A stretch of DNA of 8,607 bases from Candidatus Borrarchaeota archaeon (GTDB taxonomy: Archaea > Asgardarchaeota > Sifarchaeia > Borrarchaeales > Borrarchaeaceae): the NCBI GenBank assembly GCA_016840645.1, contig JAEORY010000147.1, positions 1 through 8,607 on the forward strand, read 5' to 3'. A model generated the notes under the pieces. The model ran no database searches, had not been told where the DNA came from, and saw only the letters and a program-made list of their open reading frames with translations. Positions 2,988 to 5,050 of the stretch are shown piece by piece. Each line of letters begins with the position of its first letter. Position 1 is the stretch's first letter. The translations under genes and the position numbers were made by a program.

Positions 2988-4367
2988 ATGTCCGAACCGA
3001 AACTATTAGACATAATTAGAAAAGCCGAAACTGGTCCTATCTGTATGGAAAAAGACTTTGATTTTAGTATTATGAGATTGAAACTCAAAGAAGTTATTGC
3101 AGAGTATGATATTAGATATGATCCAGATATTTTGGTTCCATCAGACGATAGTTTGGCGGACGCTGTGTTTAACGCCGCTTTGGAACTTTATTTAGAAACA
3201 GGCACCTATTGTTTAAGTACACATCGACAAATCAAGTTTGAGGAAGATGAGATAACGGAAGCATTGCATAATGCACCAAGTCAAATTACTTTCGGCGCTG
3301 GCACTGATGAAAGAATAATGACCAATAGACGGATAGAAGATCAAAAACCTCCTCTATGTTTAACTTCAGGTGGCTGCGAAATCTCTGAGGACATTTATGC
3401 AAAAGTAGTTCAGAGTCTTGCACAAGAACCTCTAGCTGACACAGTAAGTGGAGGATATCCGTTAAAGACTATATTTGGAATGGTACCACGAGCAGGCACT
3501 CCTATTGAGATTTTAGCTTCTACTTATAATCTAATCTATGCAAAAGAAGGAACGAAGAGAGCAGGTCGCCCATTAATTGGATTTCATAATCTGATAGGGA
3601 GTGCCCTGTCAGAGGCCTCGTATATCAGTATGGATCAACCAGAACTTGGTGTGAGACCTGTGGATGGAATGCTCATCGCTACCCTTGCTGAGCTTAAAAC
3701 AGATTACAGTCAACTCGCTAAGGCTTTGTACTACTCTGAACACAATGATGTCTTAATAGGAGGCGTGTATGTGCCGTTAATGGGAGGATATGCAGGAGGA
3801 CCTGAAGGAACCGCCATAGTTACCCTAGCACATCATCTACAGGGAGTCCTTACTTATAATGTCGCTTATTCGGACTTTCCGCCTCTGCATCTCAAGTATT
3901 CTTGTTCTACCGCTCCTGAAACCATTTGGGTTGCTAGTATTGTGTGCCAAGCTCTTAGTCGAAATACTCATCTGCTTACCGCTTCAGAGGCTATAACAGC
4001 AGCAGGTCCATGCACTGACATGTGCTTATACGAGGTAGCTGCAAGCAGCTTAATGGGTAGTGTTTCTGGCTGTCATATCAATAATGCATCGGCAGCTAAA
4101 AGCCAGTATTCAGATCGTAATACTGGAATGGAAGCCAGAATGGGCTGCGAAGTCGGTCATGCTGCCACTGGCATGAAAAGGACCGATGCCAACGAACTTG
4201 TGACCCAAATAGTGTCTAAGTATGAACAAAACTTAAAAAAACCACCACTTGGGCTTACATTTCAGGAATGTTATGATTTACAGACTGTAAGACCCACTGA
4301 AGAACATGTTAATATTTTTACACGAGTCAAAAAAGAACTTGGAGATCTTGGACTCGAATTTAAATGA
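2988..4367 (+). CDS. mtmB-like: MtmB-family (monomethylamine methyltransferase-like) corrinoid methyltransferase lacking pyrrolysine
   Basis: A 459-residue relative of monomethylamine:corrinoid methyltransferase MtmB (about 458 residues), which moves a methyl group from the amine to the cobalt of its corrinoid protein in the cytoplasm. Matches run the full length: YLETGTYCLSTHRQIK near the N-terminus, AGRP (192-195), GGYAGG, AGPCTDMCLYE, TGMEARM, and the C-terminal TFQECYDLQTVRPTEEH. In Methanosarcina MtmB, pyrrolysine (amber codon) follows AGRPGMGV; here the aligned codon is CAT for His200, and the frame has no amber codon. From memory of that protein, Glu229 and Glu259 align with Leu229 and Val260. 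The fold is therefore conserved but the substrate-activating site is rebuilt, so the methyl donor may not be monomethylamine. ATG 2988 was chosen over TTG 2961 and ATG 2979 because of its ribosome-binding site and family length. It is followed at 29 bases by the corrinoid protein gene. Confidence 0.9.
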   Translation: MSEPKLLDIIRKAETGPICMEKDFDFSIMRLKLKEVIAEYDIRYDPDILVPSDDSLADAVFNAALELYLETGTYCLSTHRQIKFEEDEITEALHNAPSQITFGAGTDERIMTNRRIEDQKPPLCLTSGGCEISEDIYAKVVQSLAQEPLADTVSGGYPLKTIFGMVPRAGTPIEILASTYNLIYAKEGTKRAGRPLIGFHNLIGSALSEASYISMDQPELGVRPVDGMLIATLAELKTDYSQLAKALYYSEHNDVLIGGVYVPLMGGYAGGPEGTAIVTLAHHLQGVLTYNVAYSDFPPLHLKYSCSTAPETIWVASIVCQALSRNTHLLTASEAITAAGPCTDMCLYEVAASSLMGSVSGCHINNASAAKSQYSDRNTGMEARMGCEVGHAATGMKRTDANELVTQIVSKYEQNLKKPPLGLTFQECYDLQTVRPTEEHVNIFTRVKKELGDLGLEFK

Positions 4368-4396: not shown

Positions 4397-5050
4397 ATGG
4401 AGAATCTATTCGAAGCATTAAAGAATGCTGTGGAGAAATACGAACCTGAAAAGGCAAAACAAGTTGCTAAAGAAATCGTAAATGCCCAGATTGACCCATT
4501 AAAAGCAATCGATGAGGTTTTAGTCCCTACAATGGAGCAAATAGGTGAGAAATTCGACAAAATGGAAATTTTTCTCCCTGAGCTTGTGGTTGCTGCTGAA
4601 GCGATGCAAGCTGCTACTTCTATTTTGATGGAACCACTTAAAACATCCACTGAACTTCCAAAAACAAAAGGCAAGGTTGTACTAGGAACTGTGTTTGGAG
4701 ATGTTCATGACATTGGAAAGAATATTGTCAAAGTGATGATGGAAGTTTCTGGTTTTGAAGTATTTGACTTAGGAAATAAGGTTCCTTCAATGCAATTTAT
4801 CGAAAAGGCAATAGAAGTGAATGCTGATATAATTGCTCTTTCAGCTTTAATGGCAACTACGATGGGATCTCAAAAAGAAGTGCTTGAACTACTAGAAGCA
4901 CTAGGAAAACGAGATGACTACATAGTGCTTATTGGCGGCGCTCCAACGACACCTGCCTGGCAAGAGGAGATTGGTGCTGAGGGGTGGGCAGAAACGGCTG
5001 CTGGAGCGGCAAAGATTGCAGCTCAATGGATGAAAGAAAAAGGGAAATAG
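4397..5050 (+). CDS. mtmC-like: Methylamine-type corrinoid protein (MtmC/MtbC/MttC family)
   Basis: A 217-residue cobalamin-binding protein that accepts the methyl group from the preceding methyltransferase and passes it to a second enzyme. An N-terminal four-helix cap domain (about 1-85) carries PTMEQIGEKFDKMEIFLPEL. It is followed by the B12-binding Rossmann domain with the base-off ligand motif GDVHDIGKNI (101-110), where His104 is the lower cobalt ligand, then SALMATTMGSQ (149-159) and VLIGGAPTTP. All expected B12-contact motifs are present, so it should be functional. The start at ATG 4397 is supported by AAGGATG at 4381-4387 and by family length; an in-frame ATG at 4364 overlaps the mtmB stop but has no ribosome-binding site and adds an unlike extension. 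It is co-transcribed with the mtmB-like gene, although methanogens usually place mtmC first. Confidence 0.9.
   Translation: MENLFEALKNAVEKYEPEKAKQVAKEIVNAQIDPLKAIDEVLVPTMEQIGEKFDKMEIFLPELVVAAEAMQAATSILMEPLKTSTELPKTKGKVVLGTVFGDVHDIGKNIVKVMMEVSGFEVFDLGNKVPSMQFIEKAIEVNADIIALSALMATTMGSQKEVLELLEALGKRDDYIVLIGGAPTTPAWQEEIGAEGWAETAAGAAKIAAQWMKEKGK

Follow-up and report, generated by a model that had tools for sequence, protein, structure and literature searches.

A pyrrolysine-free MtmB-family methyltransferase with a conserved histidine at the pyrrolysine site in an Asgard archaeon close to Candidatus Borrarchaeum

Pyrrolysine was discovered in MtmB, and it is held to activate methylamine. Four further residues of MtmB, Glu229, Glu259, Gln333 and Tyr335, are presumably placed around the pyrrolysine ring, with a role in pyrrolysine enzymes that we take from crystal work. 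In MtaB, the donor is activated by zinc. Members of the MtmB family without pyrrolysine have also been described; MtqB from Methanococcoides methylutens Q3c, reported in 2026, is a demonstrated pyrrolysine-free MtmB homologue that methylates cob(I)alamin from tetramethylammonium and choline and weakly from methylamine, does not use trimethylamine or glycine betaine, and possesses an aromatic, sulfur-rich pocket (PMC13044021). The same report notes that non-pyrrolysine MtmBs occur across the Asgard archaea (PMC13044021), and for a bacterial pyrrolysine-free MtmB a role outside monomethylamine metabolism has been proposed, according to the available part of that report (PMC9768040). Among the many pyrrolysine-free MtmBs, MtqB is the one demonstrated answer to the question of function that we found.

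Here, we analysed an mtmB-family gene at positions 2988..4367 (plus strand) of a stretch of DNA of 8,607 nucleotides (hereafter the window, meaning the whole stretch). An earlier note on this DNA had described the gene as a full-length MtmB relative without an internal amber codon, and this description held: the frame is open over 459 amino acids, with the purine-rich AAGGATG just 5' of the ATG at 2988 and a TGA stop at 4365-4367, and its product matches the whole PF05369 profile (379.6 bits, the cut-off being 25; profile positions 4-450 of 450). PF05369 is the only family listed by the Pfam scan at E up to 0.001, with no match to a profile of the MttB/MtgB family, and the NCBIfam scan of this protein returned no model at the same limit. 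A phmmer search of the PDB sequences returned only the entries of Methanosarcina barkeri MtmB1, with which the protein shares 34% identity (BLAST); against 1tv2 and 1l2q (E ~5e-81) residues 8-458 align on 11-458, and His200, encoded by CAT at 3585..3587 (plus strand), lies under Pyl202. The segment AGRPLIGF-H pairs with AGRPGMGV-X without a gap before the site, the sole nearby gap following it, and a MAFFT alignment of 220 rows paired His200 with Pyl202 again, as the earlier note had proposed. The AlphaFold2 model (67-row alignment; pLDDT 95.9, pTM 0.94) superposes on the MtmB structures, which are its best Foldseek matches (1l2q, 1nth and 1tv2; TM 0.95, 1.9 A), followed in the ranking by MttB and MtgB with TM about 0.5. 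Its predicted strands include 124-126, 152-154, 198-201, 227-231, 256-260, 294-297, 331-336 and 363-368; His200 sits in strand 198-201, Cys124, Thr152 and Ser154 are also in barrel strands, Tyr261 is just past a strand, Cys306 lies beyond strand 294-297 and Asn181 falls within a helix.

The source of the window is an Asgard archaeon that belongs to Candidatus Borrarchaeum or is closely related to it. Among the eight proteins most similar to the window's MtmB (P0002-P0009; 89-94% identity), one is named Candidatus Borrarchaeum, and the genome scan gave matches in B. yapensis (93%), B. weybense (91%), a Hodarchaeon (74%), a Bathyarchaeon (44%) and Candidatus Formimonas warabiya (33%). The histidine codon, read as DNA in seven genes of the clade including the window's, is CAT in six and CAC in one. 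Comparison of the gene with six orthologues gave dN of 0.037-0.194 and dS of 0.24-2.16, which shows that the window's mtmB is under purifying selection; a decayed gene was ruled out, as dN is well under dS in all six comparisons.

His200 is not a stray substitution but part of a conserved set that is common to three clades of His-type MtmBs, which are found in both archaea and bacteria and make up about a quarter of the rows that we collected. This collection of 438 rows was drawn from three similarity searches together with genome searches; it contains some genes twice (as protein and as locus) and leaves out proteins below 380 or above 600 amino acids and genome matches with fewer than 330 aligned residues. 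Its pyrrolysine column holds Leu (115 rows), His (112), Ile (54), Met (36), Asn (32) and Pyl (7), with other residues in the rest. Counted in the 112 His rows and in the 319 other rows without pyrrolysine, the set comprises Ser154 (codon 3447..3449; strand 152-154 of the model; 112/112 versus 9/319), Asn181 (3528..3530; helix 172-191; 112/112 versus 30/319), Tyr261 (112/112 versus 18/319), Asn201, the second residue of an 'HN' motif (3588..3590; 111/112 versus 38/319), Cys306 (3903..3905; after strand 294-297, a one-residue bridge in the model; 110/112 versus 26/319) and Cys124 (3357..3359; strand 124-126; 104/112 versus 50/319), all encoded on the plus strand. Thr152 shows a similar distribution (109/112 versus 7/319) and is present in all seven amber rows as well.

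Glu229, Glu259, Gln333 and Tyr335, kept in 7/7 amber rows, are Leu, Val, Glu and Ile in the window's protein. By the 220-row alignment, the codons on the plus strand are those of Leu229 (3672..3674), which replaces Glu229, of Val260-Tyr261 (3765..3770), which replace Glu259-Gln260, and of Glu334 and Ile336 (3987..3995, in strand 331-336), which replace Gln333 and Tyr335. Pyrrolysine and these four companions were exchanged together in the window's clade, as the proteins listed at 59% identity or more show: histidine is at the pyrrolysine site in 66/66 of them, the window's own included, and across the 63 full-length ones the five places read His, Leu, Val, Glu, Ile (55 proteins) or His, Ala, Ile, Glu, Ile (eight), with Glu334 and Ile336 both retained in 63/63. 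These identity-picked counts (66/66 and 63/63) are the fair ones, since the 69-row group was picked by its five-residue signature and is uniform by definition. The other two His groups have Ala, Asn or Ser at the place of Glu334, and several other clades have Trp, Tyr or Phe at that of Ile336. Near the amber clade there are pyrrolysine-free rows (L031, L077, P0124 and P0125), some of which have Glu229; such signatures (IESFY, TEMLW, TEVLW and FEAYY), which keep Glu229 and lack pyrrolysine, possibly represent an intermediate state.

The lack of an amber codon, for which the earlier note had suggested searching the family, is general among its Asgard members: PF05369 gave 39 matches in 25 of the 227 genomes of the phylum, of which none has an internal TAG (0/39) and one an internal TAA. 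In the phylum of the Bathyarchaeon G004, where 48 of 398 genomes have a match, TAG lies inside two of 78 matches, and in the class of F. warabiya, with matches in 7 of 43 genomes, inside four of 20. PylS scored above the cut-off in both Borrarchaeum genomes and in F. warabiya and was not found above it in the Hodarchaeon G003, the Bathyarchaeon G004, G053, G054, G055, G008, G056 and G046; the window's clade is thus represented in four of the latter genomes as well (G003 and G053-G055). MtbB (PF09505) was detected in two of six genomes tested, namely in B. weybense, with one TAG, and in B. yapensis, where the match is partial, lies at a contig end and has no TAG. These results agree with a 2021 study whose available part gives MtbB as the sole gene with an in-frame UAG in the window's class (PMC9723677). 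Hence, the window's MtmB lacks pyrrolysine in a lineage that is able to make it. The two Borrarchaeum mtmB orthologues (L008 and L009) end in TAG, which is used as a stop there despite the presence of PylS in these genomes and of the in-frame TAG in the MtbB of B. weybense.

An unrooted tree of 98 representative rows, computed with twelve pocket columns masked, unites the amber MtmBs in one clade (five rows, support 100/100), and pyrrolysine changes once on it. The window's clade (four rows, 100/100) lies outside the amber clade, within a 32-row clade (100/99) that consists of the three His types, a Met type and a Lys/Gln type, contains no amber rows and leaves the mutual order of these types open. 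The earlier note had suggested testing whether the His variant forms a clade of its own; in this tree the window's clade has full support, and the three His types are not separated from the Met and Lys/Gln types. A tree in which all His rows are joined (plus one nested Cys row) was not rejected (p-AU 0.50), and one gain of the histidine and several gains are both compatible with these data.

Directly downstream of mtmB, the window encodes a B12-binding corrinoid protein of the MtbC/MtgC type (4397..5050, plus strand; PF02310 and PF02607), which starts at the ATG at 4397 or at an ATG at 4364 that overlaps the mtmB stop. Its DVHDIG presumably corresponds to the DxHxxG cobalamin motif. Against NCBIfam, the protein matched MtgC, pyl_corrinoid and MtbC, with MtgC best and all three below their own cut-offs. 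The order of mtmB followed by the corrinoid protein is the same in the window and in both Borrarchaeum genomes, where no further neighbour informative of the substrate was found among the ten additional proteins scanned, which cover part of these loci. There was no transporter among the nine window proteins scanned; at the Borrarchaeum loci, an MFS transporter is located 5.9 kb from the pair in one genome and a ZIP transporter 3 kb from it in the other, with genes between, and an MFS transporter without a specific family lies upstream on the same strand in two of the four further Asgard genomes that have this enzyme (G003 and G053-G055). In these four, the orthologue is within 4 kb of a second mtmB, which is of the Lys type in the three that were typed. 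RACo-family corrinoid activators gave matches in five of six genomes, two each in the two Borrarchaeum genomes and none in G003, and MtrH homologues in two of six, the Borrarchaeum pair (six and five matches), with no MtrH match in G003 and G053-G055.

An Ada-type alkylation sensor and Ogt are found near the His-type mtmB in three of the four other Asgard genomes: in G054 and G055 the genome's only such sensor and an Ogt gene stand between the His-type mtmB and the second mtmB, and in G003 some 2-3 kb separate both from the His-type mtmB. In G046, a genome with no His-type copy among its matches, the distance between Ada and mtmB is 7.7 kb; in G053 and G056 Ada is not near the gene, and the two Borrarchaeum genomes, which are closest to the window, gave no Ada match. 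Overall, among the 11 genomes searched, four of the six that bear Ada have their only copy next to an Ogt-like gene and no more than about 8 kb away from an mtmB (L061:40-1108, L058:10324-11419, L057:10336-11404 and G046:C236:15858). This proximity points to a methyl donor or by-product that is reactive, or else to an inherited gene order. Other features of these surroundings include a toxin-antitoxin-like pair upstream of the window's mtmB on the opposite strand (2081-2814, minus), in which a HEPN protein (2081-2494) overlaps an MNT-type nucleotidyltransferase (2473-2814), and, in two Asgard genomes, a protein that weakly matches PF14196 (ATC hydrolase family) and is encoded no more than about 2 kb from the His-type mtmB (L071:9798-10307, below the cut-off, and L061:6227-6943, just above it).

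Arrangements of a different kind surround other MtmB paralogues. Among the 48 genomes with a match in the phylum of the Bathyarchaeon G004, about 18 carry two different paralogues (types xLLDW and NxLDY where typed) as a tandem on the same strand, with fewer than 150 bases between them (e.g., G259:C1:18047-20769), and in G422:C78 both are within a single open frame of 961 codons; a heteromeric MtmB is possible in these cases. Other non-pyrrolysine MtmBs of Borrarchaeum, G008, G314 and G423 adjoin genes of ECF-like vitamin transporters (L064:9256-15036, L073:3766-9543, L070:4458-9397, L134:3020-8383 and L135:7535-12897; the S component was assigned by Pfam for L064 and by locus similarity for the rest). 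Genes for a mandelate-racemase-like enolase and for a thiamine-diphosphate enzyme flank the Lys-type MtmB paralogue of Borrarchaeum, in an order that is kept in G179 (L063:6777-11445, L072:200-5512 and L129:2089-7451) and that, to our knowledge, resembles no known methylamine operon.

Taking these observations together, we consider it probable that the window's protein is a corrinoid methyltransferase that works with the downstream corrinoid protein on an activated, probably quaternary, methyl donor. Judged by its family, fold and partner, it would serve as MtxB, the methyltransferase that acts first, in a corrinoid methyl-transfer pair: its TIM barrel would take up a small methylated compound, one methyl group would pass to the Co(I) corrinoid carried by the neighbouring protein, the demethylated product would be released, and a second methyltransferase, in Borrarchaeum perhaps of the MtrH type, would hand the methyl group onward. 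The enzyme uses no pyrrolysine and is not a standard monomethylamine methyltransferase. Since pyrrolysine, Glu229, Glu259, Gln333 and Tyr335 are all replaced, pyrrolysine chemistry cannot run as it does in MtmB, and the different methyl donor postulated in the earlier note is therefore likely. With no pyrrolysine to activate the donor, the substrate should bring its own good leaving group, for which MtqB is a precedent; hence, the donor would most likely be pre-activated, chiefly a methyl compound that is quaternary or cationic in another way, as in the case of MtqB. The top NCBIfam match of the corrinoid partner, below its cut-off, is MtgC of the glycine betaine systems, in line with such a donor. 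Further points in favour are the purifying selection on the gene and, in both Borrarchaeum genomes, the retention of the pair and the RACo and MtrH matches; points against are that no transporter was found among the nine window proteins scanned, that G003 and G053-G055 gave no MtrH match and that G003 gave no RACo match. His200, Tyr261, Cys306, Cys124 and Glu334 may contribute to the pocket; however, a site poor in aromatic residues (Ile336) is unlike the MtqB pocket as described.

The polar His/Tyr/Cys set differs from the aromatic cage that would be expected for a quaternary amine, and hence we also entertain a catalytic or metal site, in which His200, Cys306 and Cys124, with Tyr261 and, in the window's clade, Glu334, would coordinate a metal, zinc for example, or serve in acid/base catalysis and so activate an uncharged donor, e.g., a methyl thiol, a methylated alcohol or a methylamine held without pyrrolysine. 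The histidine, Ser154, Tyr261 and Cys306 are at or just past different strands and co-conserved (110-112 of 112 His rows against 9-26 of 319 other non-pyrrolysine rows), which speaks for such a site, but Cys306 is beyond its strand, common descent alone can preserve a residue set, Glu334 is not shared by the other two His groups and Cys124 is missing in eight of 112 His rows. On balance, we regard this explanation as unlikely, and we hold it to be at least as doubtful that the His-type MtmBs as a whole represent a third way of methyl activation, with a His200-Tyr261-Cys306 site (together with Cys124 and Ser154) that would employ a metal or acid/base catalysis and neither pyrrolysine nor a plain cation cage. 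The histidine-assisted mechanism offered in the earlier note is a possibility. That monomethylamine is still demethylated, with histidine standing in for pyrrolysine, appears improbable: family and fold are the same and MtqB keeps low methylamine activity without pyrrolysine (PMC13044021), but the four companions of pyrrolysine are gone too, and the sister genomes, with PylS and one amber MtbB, indicate that nothing known barred the use of pyrrolysine.

A methyl halide or another reactive methylating agent as the donor is, in our view, slightly more improbable still. The position of Ada and Ogt close to mtmB in G003, G054 and G055, and of Ada near the mtmB of G046, would fit it, as would the dichloromethane response of F. 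warabiya, in which, according to the available part of the report, a non-pyrrolysine MtmB topped the fold change of all proteins on dichloromethane versus glycine betaine (PMC9768040). Yet gene order can persist by common descent, Ada is not near the gene in G053 and G056 and has no match in the two Borrarchaeum genomes, and none of the eight F. warabiya copies belongs to the window's clade. The insertion of pyrrolysine after all, through another codon or a misread TAG, is refuted for practical purposes and has in our estimate next to no chance of being right; pyrrolysine machinery is present in the lineage, but the codon is CAT or CAC in 7/7 genes, the residue is histidine in 66/66 listed proteins, and PylS does not exceed its cut-off in four genomes that carry a member of the clade. 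We thus retain the corrinoid methyltransferase for an activated, probably quaternary, donor as the favoured reading.

In the window's clade, pyrrolysine and its four companions are exchanged together although close relatives of this lineage have kept the ability to make pyrrolysine. The exchange names residues to probe, and the donor, if found, would tell what these Asgard archaea live on. Moreover, the existence of a single amber clade among many pyrrolysine-free ones bears on how pyrrolysine was recruited. The window's protein resembles the MtmB of Methanosarcina (1L2Q, 1NTH and 1TV2) in family, full length, fold (TM 0.95) and corrinoid partner, but differs from it by the lack of pyrrolysine, by the replacement of Glu229, Glu259, Gln333 and Tyr335 with Leu, Val, Glu and Ile, and by an identity of only 34%. 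With MtgB and the other non-pyrrolysine members of the MttB family (2QNE and 9YCE) it shares the absence of pyrrolysine and a corrinoid partner, and it would work alike, although it belongs to a different sequence family (TM about 0.5). The non-pyrrolysine MtmB of F. warabiya, induced by dichloromethane according to the available part of the report (PMC9768040), is of the same pyrrolysine-free MtmB family, but none of the seven non-pyrrolysine copies of that bacterium has histidine at the site (0/7) and all are outside the window's clade. MtqB is likewise a pyrrolysine-free MtmB homologue with a corrinoid protein, in a host that also decodes pyrrolysine; its pocket is compared here by its published description, and the name Methanococcoides did not appear among the best 120 each of 975, 343 and 413 matches, most of these 120 without a name, when proteins were searched with three queries, namely the MtmB of the window, an Asgard copy close to the amber clade and a F. 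warabiya copy. We found no description of a His-type MtmB pocket in the titles and abstracts of the literature searched, most subscription papers lying outside it. Hence, the proposal in the earlier note of a pyrrolysine-free counterpart within the MtmB family holds in that the protein lacks pyrrolysine, belongs to the family proper and is followed by a corrinoid protein, but it is not the first of its kind, given MtqB (PMC13044021): pyrrolysine-free MtmBs are already known, also from Asgard archaea and in one case with a function, and what is new here is the histidine constellation.
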